The notes below the pieces were generated by a model. That model did not search any database. It was given only the letters and a program-made list of their open reading frames with translations, and was not told the origin of the DNA. From the NCBI RefSeq assembly GCF_003586285.1, contig NZ_QUBR01000002.1:372001-436000 (forward strand): DNA of 64,000 nt. Direction: 5' to 3'. The translations under genes were made by a program, and so were the position numbers. How positions within the stretch are numbered: the first letter of the stretch is position 1; each line of letters opens with the position of its first letter. Source of the DNA: Aeromicrobium endophyticum (lineage in GTDB: Bacteria > Actinomycetota > Actinomycetes > Propionibacteriales > Nocardioidaceae). Below are positions 3,575-27,558 of this stretch, piece by piece.

Positions 3575-4185
3575 GAGTCGGTGCCTTCCGTGGGAGGGGT
3601 GGGAGACGGATACGGGTGCTGCGCGAACAGCAGCACGCTCTCGGTGAGCAGCGTGAGCGCCTCGTCGCGGGTGAAGGTCTCCTGCTGGAGCCACTCGCGA
3701 CACACGGCCTTGGTGAGGGCCGCCATGGGCCGCAGGCGGGCGCGCAGGTGAGGTGTGTCGGGCAGCCCGAGGGCGTCGAGCACCAGGCGTGCCGCGCGGT
3801 CGTCGGCCTCGTCGACGATCTGCTGGATGTCGGAGCTGCCGTGCAGGTTGGCCGCGCCGCTGGCAGCGACCCAGGCCTGGCCGTACGTGGTGGCGGCCTC
3901 GAGGATCCAGTCCATCGTCATCGCGGCCCGCTGCTCGAGCGTCTTGCCGTCGAGCTCGGGCAGGGCCCGCTCGGGCATCATGATCGACTCGCGCATCACG
4001 GCCAGGAACAGCTCGCGCTTGTCGCCGAAGTAGTGGTTGATGAGTCCCCGGGCGACGCCCGCAGCATCGGCGAGCTCGCTTGACGAGACGGCGTCGTACG
4101 GGCGGTCGACGTAGAGCTCACGCGCGGCGTCGATGATCTGCTGACGCCGCTCCGCCGGTGCCAGGCGTGATCGTGGGATGGCCAT
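3571..4185 (-). CDS. TetR family transcriptional regulator
   Basis: 204 residues. The N-terminal helix-turn-helix domain reads RRQQIIDAARELYVD, then SSSELADAAGVARGLINHYF, the hallmark TetR DNA-binding segment; the rest is a divergent ligand-binding helical domain. First gene of an operon with the monooxygenase and ADC-like genes (four-base overlaps) and divergent from the GMC oxidoreductase gene 55 bases away. The shared intergenic region has a dyad overlapping the GMC promoter, so autoregulated repression of both directions is likely. Confidence 0.92.
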   Translation of the reverse strand: MAIPRSRLAPAERRQQIIDAARELYVDRPYDAVSSSELADAAGVARGLINHYFGDKRELFLAVMRESIMMPERALPELDGKTLEQRAAMTMDWILEAATTYGQAWVAASGAANLHGSSDIQQIVDEADDRAARLVLDALGLPDTPHLRARLRPMAALTKAVCREWLQQETFTRDEALTLLTESVLLFAQHPYPSPTPPTEGTDS

Positions 4186-22079: not shown

Positions 22080-24383
22080 GTGGCTGATCGCATCGAGACC
22101 CCGTCGGTCGAGTCGAAGAACACCGACTCGGTGCCTACATCTGCGCGCGTGCGCAATCGCCTGGCGCGCATCGGCGGCAGCCGCGCCGGCTCGGTCGACG
22201 TGCTCGACCCGCTGATCAAGGTCTACCGGGCGACGCATCCCAAGGGCGAGGTCGCCGCCATCCAGAAGGCGTACGAGATCGCCGAGCGGATGCACGACGG
22301 CCAGAAGCGCAAGAGCGGCGACCCCTACATCACGCACCCGCTGGCCGTCGCGACCATCCTGGCCGAGCTCGGCATGACCTCGCCGACGCTGTGCGCGGCC
22401 CTGCTGCACGACACGGTCGAGGACACGCCCTACACGCTCGAGCAGCTGACGGCCGACTTCGGCGACGAGGTGCGGCACCTCGTCGACGGTGTGACCAAGC
22501 TCGACAAGGTCAAGTACGGCGACTCGGCGCAGTCCGAGACCATCCGCAAGATGGTCGTGGCGATGAGCCGCGACATCCGCGTGCTCGTCATCAAGCTCGC
22601 CGACCGGCTGCACAACATGCGCACCCTGCGCTACCTGCGTCAGGACAAGCAGGAGCGCATCGCACGCGAGACCATCGAGATCTTCGCCCCGCTGGCGCAC
22701 CGGCTCGGCATGAACACGATCAAGTGGGAGCTCGAGGACCTCGCGTTCGCGACGCTGCACCCCAAGGTCTACGACGAGATCGTGCGTCTTGTGGCCGACC
22801 GCGCGCCGTCCCGCGGCGAGTTCCTCGAGCGGGTGACCAGCGAGGTCGAGTCCGACCTGCGGCACGTCAAGCTCAAGGCGACGGTGTCGAGCCGCCCCAA
22901 GCACTACTACTCGATCTATCAGAAGATGCTGGTCGGCGGCCGCGAGTTCTCCGAGATCTTCGACCTCGTCGGCGTGCGCATCCTGGTCGACTCGGTGGCC
23001 GACTGCTACGGCGTCCTCGGCGTGCTGCACGCGCGCTGGAACCCCATCCCGGGACGGTTCAAGGACTACATCTCGGTGCCGAAGTTCAACATGTACCAGT
23101 CGTTGCACACCACGGTGATCGGCCCGCAGGGCAAGGCCGTCGAGCTGCAGATCCGCACGTACGCGATGCACCGTCGTGCTGAGTACGGTGTCGCCGCGCA
23201 CTGGAAGTACAAGGAAGACGCGACCGCCGGCGGCAGGGGTGCCAAGGGCTCCGACGGCAACGACATGCTGTGGCTGCGCGAGGTGCTCGACTGGCAGTCC
23301 GAGACCGAGGACTCCGTCGACTTCCTCGACTCGCTGCGCTTCGAGATCAACAACGCGGGCGTCTACGCCTACACGCCGCGCGGCGACCTCATCCAGCTGC
23401 CGGCCGAGGCCACACCGGTCGACTTCGCCTACGCCGTGCACACCGAGGTCGGTCACGCCTGCATCGGCGCGCGCGTCAACGGACGGCTGGTCTCGCTCGA
23501 GTCGACGCTCGAGAGCGGCGACGTCGTCGAGATCTTCACGTCCAAGTCGGCCGACGCCGGGCCGAGCCGCGACTGGCTCGACTTCGTCGCGAGCCCCCGC
23601 GCCCGCAACAAGATCCGCCAGTGGTTCACCAAGGAGCGGCGCGAAGAGGCCATCGAGCGCGGCAAGGACCTCATCGCCAAGCAGATGCGCAAGGAGGGGC
23701 TGCCGCTCCACCGGCTGTTCAAGCACGAGACGCTGTCGACGGTGGCCCAAGAGCTGCACCTTCCCGACGTGTCGATGCTGTACGCCGCGGTCGGCGAGGG
23801 CAACGTCGGGCCCCAGAGCGTCGTCGAGCGCGTCATCGACCTGGCCGGTGGGCGCGAGGGGGCGCAGGAGGACCTCGCGGAGGCCACCACGCTGCCGGGC
23901 ATCGGGGCGCGGCGCCCGCGCAACGAGAACCGCGACGCCGGCGTCATCGTCGACGGTCTCGACGGTGACGTCCTGATCAAGCTGGCCCGGTGCTGCACGC
24001 CGGTGCCGGGTGACGACATCCAGGGCTTCGTGACACGCGGCGACGGCGTCTCGGTGCACCGCACCGACTGCGTCAACCTGCTGTCGCTGCGCAGCCAGCC
24101 CGAGCGGCTCGTCGGCGTCCGGTGGGCACCGACGGGCAAGAGCACCTTCCTCGTCGCCGTGCAGGTGGAGGGCCTCGACCGTCCGCGCCTGCTCAGCGAC
24201 ATCACACGGGTCATCTCCGACCAGCACGTCAACATCCTGTCGGCGTCGCTGAGCACTGGTCGCGACCGGGTCGCCAAGTCGAAGTTCACCTTCGAGATGG
24301 CCGATCCGAAGCACCTGGGCCACGTGTTGTCGGCCGTCCGCACGGTCAAGGGCGTCTTCGACGTCTACCGCCTCACCCAGTAA
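22080..24383 (+). CDS. relA: Bifunctional (p)ppGpp synthetase/hydrolase
   Basis: 767 residues. It makes and degrades the stringent-response alarmone. HDTVEDT marks an intact HD hydrolase domain; the synthetase has [11 protein letters not shown] and GRFKDYIS, where the R-x-K-D form (not E-x-D-D) is that of bifunctional Rel enzymes. TGS ([20 protein letters not shown]) and ACT ([15 protein letters not shown]) regulatory domains follow, with [10 protein letters not shown] between. GTG start with a strong ribosome binding site. Its stop codon abuts a repeat array, with a foreign-looking cassette beyond. Confidence 0.97.
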
Positions 24384-24385
24384 CG

Positions 24386-24429
24386 CTGACGCGTGGGTTC
24401 CGCCCCACTGACGCGTGGGTTCCGCCCTA
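24386..24429. repeat. Two tandem copies of a 22-bp repeat (left array)
   Basis: The unit CTGACGCGTGGGTTCCGCCC plus CA/TA occurs at 24386-24407 and 24408-24429, starting two bases after the relA stop. The same unit appears in inverted orientation, six times, on the far side of the AbiEi-like gene. Confidence 0.9.
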
Positions 24430-24431
24430 CC

Positions 24432-25358
24432 TCAGCCGCGAGCTCCCCAGCGACGGGCCAAGGGTGTCATCCCGAGCGCGGCGCCGAGCTCGTCCTCGAA
24501 CGAGGTGTCGGCGCCGAAGATCCGACCCCGAGTGGCATTGATCCAACGCCACCCGTACACGTCGGTCAGGTATCCGCGCCGGTCGTCGTCGTGCTGTCGG
24601 TGGCCGGCATCGGTGTGGAACTCCCGACCGTCGAACTCGCTGCCGATGAGGCGCTCCGGGTACGACAGGTCGATGAAGAAGGTTCGCCCGAAGTCGTCGA
24701 CCACCTCGTGTTGGGCCTCGGGCGGCGGGAACCCCGCGTCGAGCATTCGCAGGCGCTGCCACGACTCGCCGGGGGACTGTGTCTTGGGCTCGATGACAGC
24801 CGCCAGGCTCCGCGCCTGCACGATGCCGCGATACCCGTTGAGGCGCGCGACGTAGTCGACGACCTCGGGTGCGCGAACGAGCCCGGCTGCCGCGAAGGCG
24901 TCCGCCGCGGCGAGTGCGTACGGCCGGTACATCGAGCGAAGAAGGTCCGACACCGTGCGCAGCGGCGTGGTCAGGTGGATGCCATCGACGAAGTCGATGT
25001 CCTCCGAGCGCAGGATGGCCTGCCTGCCGCGGCTCCCAGGTCGGACGATGCGCGATCCACCGTGCTGAAGCACCATGGCGGGGGTGAAGTCGTGCCTGTC
25101 GCCGGGCGCGAAGACGTCCAGACCCATGACCCACGCAGCCGTCTCATCGCACACGACCGCGTTCGACGGCGTCACGAGGCGGAGTGCCCGCATGCGGCCC
25201 CGGCGGGAGTCGGGAACGCGAGCGTCGACGTACACGCCGCGAAACTCTCGGCGGAGGGCGCCGAGGGCGAACATGGACCGCAGGTGCTTCGGGTGGAGCC
25301 CGAGATCGCGGCCCTGCAGCACGGTGAACGGATATCCGTCGTTGACGAGCTCAGACAC
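24432..25358 (-). CDS. AbiEi-antitoxin-like protein with C-terminal DUF559/VSR-like nuclease fold
   Basis: 308 residues from GTG 25358; a TTG at 25409 is also possible, and the longer open frame runs into the repeat array. The N-terminal part (VLQGRDLGLHPKHLRSMF, then REFRGVYV and DETAAWVMGLDVF) resembles the winged-helix start of type IV AbiEi antitoxin-like proteins. The C-terminal part (SEFDGREFHTDAGHRQHDDD, RRGYLTDVYGWRWI) has the pattern of DUF559/Vsr-type endonuclease-fold domains. Such solitary genes are frequent in actinobacteria. No partner AbiEii toxin gene is adjacent. It sits alone between convergent housekeeping genes, flanked by inverted 22-bp repeat arrays, which suggests a mobile or horizontally exchanged cassette. 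Confidence 0.75.
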   Translation of the reverse strand: MSELVNDGYPFTVLQGRDLGLHPKHLRSMFALGALRREFRGVYVDARVPDSRRGRMRALRLVTPSNAVVCDETAAWVMGLDVFAPGDRHDFTPAMVLQHGGSRIVRPGSRGRQAILRSEDIDFVDGIHLTTPLRTVSDLLRSMYRPYALAAADAFAAAGLVRAPEVVDYVARLNGYRGIVQARSLAAVIEPKTQSPGESWQRLRMLDAGFPPPEAQHEVVDDFGRTFFIDLSYPERLIGSEFDGREFHTDAGHRQHDDDRRGYLTDVYGWRWINATRGRIFGADTSFEDELGAALGMTPLARRWGARG

Positions 25359-25422
25359 GTCACCGATCAAAGAGCGCCCGGGGGCTGGCGTCGAACCGTT
25401 CGTCCACAACCACGCGGCGACA

Positions 25423-25553
25423 GGGCGCAACCCACGCGTCAGCGGGGCGCAACCCACGCGTGAGGGGGGCGCAACCCACGCGTCAGCGGGGCCTAAGCCA
25501 CGCGTCAGCGGGGCGCAACCCACGCGTCAGCGGGGCGCAACCCACGCGTCAGC
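25423..25553. repeat. Six tandem copies of the 22-bp repeat (right array)
   Basis: The ACGCGT core recurs at 25434, 25456, 25478, 25500, 25522 and 25544, exactly 22 bases apart. The unit is GGGGCGCAACCCACGCGTCA plus GC, the reverse complement of the left-array unit with G for C at one position. The second copy has GTGAG for GTCAG and the fourth is degenerate (CCTAAGCC). Each unit can fold a small GGG-CGCAA-CCC hairpin. There are no spacers, so it is not CRISPR. The array abuts the stop codon of the DUF349 gene. Confidence 0.9.
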
Positions 25554-25554
25554 G

Positions 25555-26790
25555 TCAGGAGAAGTCGGCTTGGGCCTTCTTGGCCATCTCGAGGAAGGCC
25601 TGTTTGGACTCGAGGTCCTTCTGCAGGTCCTTGGCCTTCTTGGCGTCGCCCTTGGCCTCGGCCACGGTGAGCTTGTCCTGCACCTCGTCGATCGCGCGCT
25701 GGAGCTTGCCGATCATGTCGTCGGCGCGCGCCGACTTCTCGGGATCGGTCTTCTTCCAGATGCTGTCGGTCGCGTCCTTGATGGCCTGCTCGACCTTGCG
25801 GATGCGCCCCTCGAGCTCGCTGATCCGGCCGCGCGGCACCTTGCCGGCGGCCTCCCAGCGGTCGGCGATGTCGAGCCACGCCTTGCGGGCGGCGTCGACG
25901 TTGGTGATCGGCAGCAGCTTCTCGGCCTCGGCGAGGATCTCGATCTTCTTCTCGGCATTGACCTCATACTCGGCGTCGAGCGCGCTGTTGGCCTCGTCGC
26001 GAGCCGTGAAGAATGCGTCCTGAGCGGCGCGGAAGCGCTTCCAGAGCTTGTCCTCGACGTTGCGGGGTGCCGAGCCGGCCTTCTTCCACTCCGTCATGAG
26101 GTCGCGGTACTTGCCGGCCGTCGGGCCCCACTCGGTGGACGTCGACAGCGCCTCGGCCTCGACGATCAGCTTCTCCTTGACGACCTTCGCCGCGTCGCGC
26201 AGCGTCGACTGCTCGCCGAAGTGGCTCTTGCGACGTCGGGTGTACGTGGTGCGCGCGGAGCTGAAGCGGTGCCACAGCTCGTCGTCGGCGGACTTGCTGA
26301 GCCGCGGCAGCGCCTTCCACTCGTCGAGCAGCGCGCGCAGCTTGTCGGCGCCGCTCTTCCAGTCGTTTCCGGCAGCGATCTTCTCGGCGTCCTCGGCGAT
26401 GCGCGTCTTGGCGGTCTGCGCCTCGGCGACCTTGGCCGCACGCTCGACCTTGCGCTGCTCGCGCTGCGCGTCGATCGCCGGCTGCAGCGCGTCGAGGCGC
26501 GTGACGAGCGAGGCGAGATCGCCCATCGCCTGGGCGTCGACGAGCTGGTTGCGGACCTTGGTGACGGCCTTGGCGGCGTCGTCGGGGGACACCGTGCCGC
26601 CCTTCAGCCGCGCCTCGAGCAGACCGACCTCGGTCTCGAGGCCCTCGAAGCGGCGGACGTACAACGACATCGCCTCGGCGGGGTCACCTCCGGGCCACTG
26701 GCCGATCAGTCGTTCGCCGTCGGTGGTCTTGACGTAGACGTTGCCGTCGTCGTCTACACGACCCCAGGGGTTCGTGGGCGCAGAACTCAT
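25555..26790 (-). CDS. DUF349 domain-containing protein
   Basis: 411 residues. It is almost entirely alpha-helical and coiled-coil, with repeated modules of the form LRALLDEWKALPRLSKSADD-ELWHRFSSAR and LMTEWKKAGSAPRNVEDKLW-KRFRAAQDAF, the DUF349 repeat. An N-terminal segment NPWGRVDDDGNVYVKTTDGE resembles a small beta domain found in the actinobacterial members. No enzymatic motif; function unknown. The start at 26790 is supported by a -10 hexamer seven bases upstream. It converges on relA across the repeat-flanked cassette and diverges from the metallo-hydrolase gene. Confidence 0.9.
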   Translation of the reverse strand: MSSAPTNPWGRVDDDGNVYVKTTDGERLIGQWPGGDPAEAMSLYVRRFEGLETEVGLLEARLKGGTVSPDDAAKAVTKVRNQLVDAQAMGDLASLVTRLDALQPAIDAQREQRKVERAAKVAEAQTAKTRIAEDAEKIAAGNDWKSGADKLRALLDEWKALPRLSKSADDELWHRFSSARTTYTRRRKSHFGEQSTLRDAAKVVKEKLIVEAEALSTSTEWGPTAGKYRDLMTEWKKAGSAPRNVEDKLWKRFRAAQDAFFTARDEANSALDAEYEVNAEKKIEILAEAEKLLPITNVDAARKAWLDIADRWEAAGKVPRGRISELEGRIRKVEQAIKDATDSIWKKTDPEKSARADDMIGKLQRAIDEVQDKLTVAEAKGDAKKAKDLQKDLESKQAFLEMAKKAQADFS

Positions 26791-26797
26791 GGGCGAC

Positions 26798-26803
26798 AGT
26801 CTA
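26798..26803 (-). promoter_or_regulatory. -10 element of the DUF349 gene
   Basis: TAGACT on the minus strand ends seven bases before the ATG at 26790, indicating a leaderless message. Confidence 0.55.
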
Positions 26804-26853
26804 GGGCGACGACCGGGGCGACGACTGCATGGAGGGCGTCCGCCCGTCTCGCG

Positions 26854-26859
26854 TACCCT
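26854..26859 (+). promoter_or_regulatory. -10 element of the metallo-hydrolase/hisS operon
   Basis: TACCCT ends seven bases before GTG 26867, so the operon probably begins with a leaderless start. It lies about 50 bases from the divergent -10 of the DUF349 gene. Confidence 0.45.
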
Positions 26860-26866
26860 GGCGGAC

Positions 26867-27558
26867 GTGCTTCTCACGTCATTCCCGGCCGGTCCGCTGC
26901 AGGCGAACTGCTACTTCGTCTCGCGTGGCCCCGGAGCCGGATGCGCCATCGTCGACCCCGGGATGGATGCGCTCGAGGGCGTCCGCCAGGTCGTGGCCGA
27001 GCACAACCTGAGGCCCGCCGCCGTCCTCGTGACCCACGGCCACTTCGACCACATGTGGAACGCGCAGGACGTCGCGGCCGAGTACGACTGCCCCGTGTGG
27101 ATCCACCCGGCCGATCGCCACCTGCTGAGCGATCCGATGGCCGCGATCTCAGGCCAGTCGGCCGCGATGCTGCGCTCACAGCTGGGCATGACCGACATGC
27201 CTGAGTTCGCCGAGCCCGCCGACGTCCGCGATGCCGTCGACGGGGCCGAGATCGAGGTGGACGGGCTGACGTTCACCGTCGACCACGTGCCCGGCCACAC
27301 CCCCGGCACGGTGTTTTACCGGGTCGACTACGACGGGCCGGAGGACGTCTCGCAGATCATGTTCTCCGGCGACTTCCTGTTCGCGGGCTCGATCGGCCGC
27401 ACCGATCTCACCGGCGGCTCGCACGACGAGATGCAGGCCAGCCTGCGCGACCGTGTCCTGCCGCTGCCGGACGACGTCGTGGTGCTGCCCGGGCACGGCG
27501 GCCAGACGTCGATCGGTCGCGAGCGTGCCACCAACCCGTTCCTGGCTGAGGTCGCCTC

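Follow-up and report, generated by a model that had tools for sequence, protein, structure and literature searches.

What is a solitary gene doing between two inverted arrays of one short repeat, packed with hardly any spacer between the stop codons of its neighbours? The question is raised by a locus of Aeromicrobium endophyticum in the window analysed here, a 64,000-nucleotide stretch of contig NZ_QUBR01000002.1 (positions 372,001 to 436,000). The initial annotation had seen in it either an insertable cassette or a defence-type gene with its own boundary elements.

The locus and its protein

On the left, a relA/spoT-type gene (22080–24383, plus strand; Pfam HD, RelA_SpoT, TGS and ACT domains) ends in a TAA stop codon at 24381–24383, which forms the left border of the cassette. 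The left array (24384–24429, plus strand) comprises a CG and two inward-pointing 22-bp units (CGCTGACGCGTGGGTTCCGCCC) of the form CTGACGCGTGGGTTCCGCCC(C/T)A, at 24386–24407 and 24408–24429. The enclosed gene lies on the minus strand (24432–25358) and encodes a 308-residue protein with an AbiEi-like N-terminal and middle part followed by an EDxHD/Vsr-type nuclease domain. A 363-residue reading frame (GTG at 25523) extends into the right array; it is over-long, since alignment with 19 relatives places the start at the GTG at 25358. The gap between start codon and upstream array holds the motif TTGTGGAC (25402–25409, minus strand; [GA]TCCACA on the opposite strand). At its inner edge the right array carries a degenerate partial unit, half of a seventh (25410–25422, minus strand), and then six inward-pointing 22-bp units (25423–25554, minus strand; plus-strand consensus GGGCGCAACCCACGCGTCAGCG), which Tandem Repeats Finder (TRF) reports with a period of 22, 6.0 copies, a score of 229 and 90% match. 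The DUF349 gene follows (25555–26877, minus strand; Pfam DUF349, 1.6e-50). Its stop codon (TCA on the plus strand, 25555–25557) forms the right border, so the right array directly abuts it. Left and right arms are 89–93% complementary across 43–45 nt.

Coordinates and TRF thus confirm the layout first noted, two units after the relA stop and six inverted units up to the DUF349 stop, and period and complementarity uphold the 22-bp periodicity and inverted placement of the arrays. Structure matches and the lack of an adjacent toxin gene agree with the description of the enclosed gene as solitary and AbiEi-like with a nuclease-fold C-terminus. The fold GGG-CGCAA-CCC proposed for each unit stands in part: the stem is present but only 3 bp long, and strong hairpins are instead a property of opposed arrays at dispersed sites.

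In an AlphaFold2 model (mean pLDDT 75) the winged helix-turn-helix region is poor, with pLDDT under 50 at residues 1–13 and 33–48. Residues 53–190 resemble the AbiEi antitoxin 6y8q (Z 11.0), and residues 195–297 resemble the catalytic domain of the homing endonuclease I-Bth0305I (3r3p; Z 10.0, rmsd 2.5) and also Vsr (1cw0; Z 8.5). Further structure matches (TnsA at Z 6.5, Can2 and others) were set aside as too middling in score. Among 66 class-wide homologs the nuclease residues are kept almost throughout (E198 in 66, D230 in 63, E241 in 65, H248 in 57 and D257 in 65). By modelled fold and catalytic motif the protein is an EDxHD/Vsr-type nuclease of predicted activity. Together with dN/dS values of 0.06–0.13 across five pairs, the conserved residues indicate a gene under purifying selection. 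Model searches place the family with AbiEi and MTES_1575/DUF559: of 20 aligned members, 9 match Pfam AbiEi_4 and 9 match MTES_1575, PADLOC assigns every one to AbiEi (AbiEi 4.1e-17), and none has an NCBIfam match. No AbiEii toxin gene lies beside the gene in the window, where its neighbours are relA and DUF349 with the arrays alone between.

Pairing of gene and repeat

The unit is far from confined to this locus. Across the 4.03-Mb genome (G000), with as many as 3 mismatches allowed, CTGACGCGTGGGTTNCGCCC matches 48 times and a reversed control pattern once, placing the arrays far above chance. The matches group into 12 sites, the window and 11 others, which rules out the window as a unique cassette; the gene is found inside the arrays at the window site only. 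Most sites are short head-to-head arrays with a 22-bp period at one or more gene 3′ ends, and about two-thirds lie between convergent genes (orientation partly read by eye). RNA folding of four opposed arrays gave z-scores of −7.2 to −11.2 for three and −2.6 for the fourth. The suggestion that the repeats serve as bidirectional terminators is therefore plausible at dispersed head-to-head arrays; it does not extend to the window, where some 1 kb separates the arms, no strong hairpin is expected between them and a terminator role is unlikely. At two sites (L016 and L019) the neighbouring gene takes its stop codon, a TGA, from the unit itself, and in subfamily B (L088–L092) the unit provides the stop codon of the nuclease gene. 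All 12 sites lie on contigs C2 and C3 (about 1.9 Mb); contig C1 (2.13 Mb) has no array site and one isolated match with 3 mismatches. Sites in the relative G008 likewise cluster around the gene, over roughly half the chromosome.

Five units (the window type, type B, G030 type A, and those of G046 and G299) were counted over whole genomes, and each is abundant almost solely in genomes whose gene has that unit as its flank. The window-type unit occurs 38 times in G000, 16 in G008, 47 in G013, 90 in G034 and 86 in G043, the genomes with the closest orthologs, and 0–3 times in the 44 other congeners. The type-B unit numbers 101 in G030 and 102 in G012 against 0–16 in other genomes; its pattern has a noisy background of up to 16 (G035), and counts of 16 each in G015 and G044, being no higher, were dropped as support. 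The G030 type-A unit occurs 37 times in G030, 32 times in G012 and in none of 47 genomes, the G046 unit 59 times in G046 against 0–2 elsewhere, and the G299 unit 93 times in G299 against 2 in its congener G394. As judged from these comparisons, genomes that hold the gene have its repeat scattered at the 3′ ends of genes. It had been argued at the outset that dispersal at random intergenic sites, away from such genes, would count against a cassette. That objection applies in part, as 11 sites in G000 lack such a gene, but copy number across genomes still tracks the cognate gene, and the gene-less sites are for this reason better read as non-autonomous copies than as non-association.

Two genomes depart from the rule. 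The 32 type-A copies in G012 match the flank unit of its sister G030 and not the present unit of its own subfamily-A gene, and G024 has at least one dispersed array of a unit that differs from the flanks of its subfamily-A gene: its counterpart of the L018 site (L203) carries an array with the core GTCACTTTTCGC, and no gene matching this unit turned up in that genome. For both genomes we had predicted a second homolog with the odd dispersed repeats as its flanks; none was found in either, and the prediction failed. Replacement of one allele by another would account for G012, where the dispersed units match the gene of the sister genome, though not for G024.

Relatives of the protein occur in 19 of 49 Aeromicrobium genomes, and class-wide homologs in 181 of 395 sampled genomes. 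The relatives in Aeromicrobium, Mumia, other Nocardioidaceae and Georgenia have tandem arrays, nearly always on both sides and inverted; the array unit varies between species while the left and right arrays of one locus agree. Class-wide homologs are often flanked likewise, with periods of 19–44 bp. To score the flanks, 400 bp from upstream were aligned locally with 400 bp from downstream, the latter reverse-complemented, and the cut-off was set at the 99th percentile of 599 same-genome windows (exceeded by 1% of windows). This background replaced an earlier mismatched-pair control with an inflated maximum of 321; its single extreme window is a Georgenia locus with 19-bp arrays of like kind of its own. 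Across Actinobacteria, 76 of 90 loci score above the cut-off (21 of 24 in Aeromicrobium, 26 of 27 closer class-wide homologs and 29 of 39 remoter ones), and flanking repeats went undetected by this test in about 16% of the 90. The expectation that arrays of this kind would stand beside other AbiEi/DUF559-like genes is thereby borne out, and the alignments firmly indicate that a repeat specific to the genome stands on either side of these genes in inverted, inward-facing copies. Five of six own-genome paralogs lack strong inverted flank repeats; the sixth (L034) scores 82, so the paralogs do not provide a clean negative control. In one family (f7 g39, about 5 copies per genome, the host probably Mycobacterium) the flanks are single REPIN-like hairpins such as CGAGCAGACGCAAATGTCCC. 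Elsewhere, 8 plus-strand and 5 minus-strand units surround a hexapeptide-repeat protein gene (L243, G046:C2:424600-425800), with no nuclease gene; by eye its product resembles a gamma-carbonic anhydrase. The enclosed gene is possibly cargo, or the two arrays may simply be neighbours.

The gap between upstream array and start codon contains a CCTGTGGA[CT]-type motif at 49 of 90 loci (25402–25409 in the window and 48 others); downstream it is found at 1 of 90, and in about 2% of background windows. We take this motif, and TTGTGGAC with it, to be DnaA-box-like on the opposite strand. It may tie expression of the gene to replication.

Polymorphic sites and apparent exchange at the relA-DUF349 junction

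Flanks of the 11 dispersed G000 sites were located in relatives and seven sites were aligned. Five sites are filled with an array in G000 and array-less in G008; the array is missing at one site in G012 and at another in G013, and the L018 and L016 junctions hold arrays of a different unit in other species. Array sites are, on this evidence, polymorphic between species. At the seven aligned sites, empty and filled forms differ by short flanking changes with no clean target-site duplication.

The gene and its arrays appear to have a history unlike that of their fixed neighbours, as if swapped between species at one junction. Trees of relA and of DUF349 join G012 with G030 and G000 with G044 (97–100% bootstrap), whereas the nuclease gene tree pairs G012 with G044. 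The gene tree rejects G012+G030 (p-AU 0.0002) and G000+G008+G044 (p-AU 0.0003); G024+G021 is not rejected (p-AU 0.11). By this conflict the gene and its arrays behave as an exchangeable cassette, and to that extent the cassette idea first put forward stands. The simplest reading of the trees is replacement of gene and arrays as a unit at a fixed relA-DUF349 junction; old paralogs with differential loss would be a less simple alternative.

The junction had also been expected to be empty in some strains, and the gene is indeed absent from it in at least one relative. There (G005), 10.6 kb separate relA from DUF349, a stretch of unrelated genes that has no nuclease gene and no arrays. This interval (L227) contains a three-copy repeat of 31–32 bp (3943–4037) and a 129-nt inverted repeat (4021–4149/4417–4545). 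In G027, relA-DUF349 was not found in 200 kb chosen by guessed position. In G008 (L204, G008:C1:3099000-3105000) the nuclease gene is split from its right array by two inserted genes, named by eye: one for an ISL3-like transposase and one of AraC type. No plasmid or phage homologs of the protein were found, and a plasmid or phage origin was set aside on this ground.

A candidate master locus and its alternatives

We propose, with rather more confidence than doubt, a REP-like repeat system whose enzyme is unrelated to RAYTs, with the gene and its arrays as its master locus. The N-terminal AbiEi-like part would recognise the genome's own repeat unit, a proposal prompted by the binding of AbiEi proteins to 23-bp inverted repeats (PMC7319586). 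The C-terminal EDxHD/Vsr-type nuclease would then nick or cut DNA at repeats or at recipient junctions and gene ends, and repair with the array as template would copy arrays into new gene ends and also expand or homogenise them. Such copying and homogenising would account for the one species-specific sequence shared by left, right and dispersed arrays. At the master locus itself one gene-plus-array allele would replace another in the fashion of a homing endonuclease. Dispersed arrays would be non-autonomous copies, tolerated as head-to-head hairpins just 3′ of stop codons, where they may act as terminators. Binding, cutting and copying by the protein, and hence its own part in spreading or homogenising the repeats, are what we infer from this arrangement.

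The closest parallel is the REP-RAYT system, in which a short extragenic repeat brackets a chromosomal gene as an inverted pair, gene and repeat are mutually specific, and the repeats are scattered between genes, in opposed pairs and at 3′ ends (PMC2817692, PMC3733652). The Aeromicrobium gene likewise lies between two inverted copies of a dispersed repeat that is abundant in genomes with the cognate gene, G012 and G024 excepted. Unlike REP-RAYT, the protein joins AbiEi-like and EDxHD/Vsr-type nuclease parts, and no HUH/Y1 transposase (Y1_Tnp, PF01797) was found in 10 Aeromicrobium genomes while control genomes were positive, which rules out a RAYT as mobiliser of the repeats there. Units such as CTGACGCGTGGGTTNCGCCC lack a GTAG head and have an internal stem of 3 bp, inward-facing tandem arrays with periods of 19–44 bp stand in place of single GTAG-tagged palindromes, and the cassettes appear to be swapped between species at one locus. 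RAYTs are the one kind of partner enzyme known for REP sequences, and CGTC-tagged families have no known dedicated transposase (PMC3733652); these share opposed dispersed repeats at gene ends but belong mostly to Proteobacteria and have stems of 8–9 bp. EDxHD/Vsr-type homing endonucleases such as I-Bth0305I share the nuclease fold and the order of conserved residues, and allele replacement at a fixed site, known here from its phylogenetic trace, recalls homing; they differ in that here there is no intron or intein, the DNA-binding part is AbiEi-like and tandem arrays come along. MITEs and terminal-inverted-repeat transposons also combine a gene-bearing copy with gene-less copies that have common inverted ends, whereas the present arrays are multi-unit and variable in copy number, no clean target-site duplication is seen at aligned sites and the protein falls outside known transposase families.

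The alternatives differ in what they ask of the protein. It could be a regulator or nucleoid factor that binds the arrays as operators or chromosomal landmarks (for autoregulation, termination or replication-linked control), the repeats having spread by other means. AbiEi-type domains are indeed repressors that act on their own promoter by binding 23-bp inverted repeats there (PMC7319586), the upstream array directly precedes the presumed promoter region, and the dispersed arrays at gene 3′ ends fold into very stable hairpins. Yet the downstream array could not control the promoter in like manner, repeat turnover between close species and empty junctions ill suit a conserved regulon, and the nuclease residues are almost invariant; we regard this account as unlikely, if worth serious attention. 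Quite improbable, to our mind, is a toxin-antidote or decoy arrangement, in which bound arrays would keep the nuclease harmless and the cost of losing gene or arrays would preserve both and drive cassette exchange. Strong purifying selection on a solitary nuclease-like gene, and recurrent replacement of the cassette, would fit, but the ortholog is missing from many congeners and the arrays vary between species.

Were the gene a mere passenger of repeats spread by another recombination or transposition system, array pairs holding other genes, as at L243, would be understandable, and the catalytic link between protein and repeats is itself inferred. The match of gene to genome-specific repeat nevertheless recurs in many genera with unrelated repeat sequences, and no Y1 transposase was found in the 10 Aeromicrobium genomes; we consider this very improbable. 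The suggestion of the initial annotation, a defence gene or orphan type IV antitoxin bounded by its own elements, draws on the PADLOC matches and on the AbiEi-like fold shared with type IV AbiE systems. That label, however, reflects the AbiEi-like half alone: no AbiEii nucleotidyltransferase toxin is adjacent, the C-terminal part is a nuclease domain, repeats lie on both sides and over the genome, and plasmid or phage copies were not found. A defence role found no support and seems the most improbable of these accounts.

The master-locus reading may reach well beyond Aeromicrobium. We lean slightly towards a widespread actinobacterial class of repeat systems that spread themselves. In these, an AbiEi-like DNA-binding domain joined to a nuclease of EDxHD/Vsr type would find its own arrays, copy them and keep them uniform, and the system would pass from one species to another by swapping cassettes in the manner of homing; many genes at present annotated as orphan AbiEi antitoxins or DUF559 may be members. 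The new part is the pairing of enzyme and repeat, its apparent activity being most like that of REP-RAYT, and in the open-licence literature we found no publication linking AbiEi/DUF559 proteins with repeats. Antitoxin or defence labels on these genes can mislead. The gene and repeat pairs suggest a previously undescribed route by which bacterial genomes gain and renew repeats. If this is true, a second, unrelated enzyme family would be tied to dispersed repeats, such systems would have arisen more than once, many solitary AbiEi/DUF559 genes of Actinobacteria would have a likely role, and there would be a handle on how bacterial repeats spread and remain uniform.
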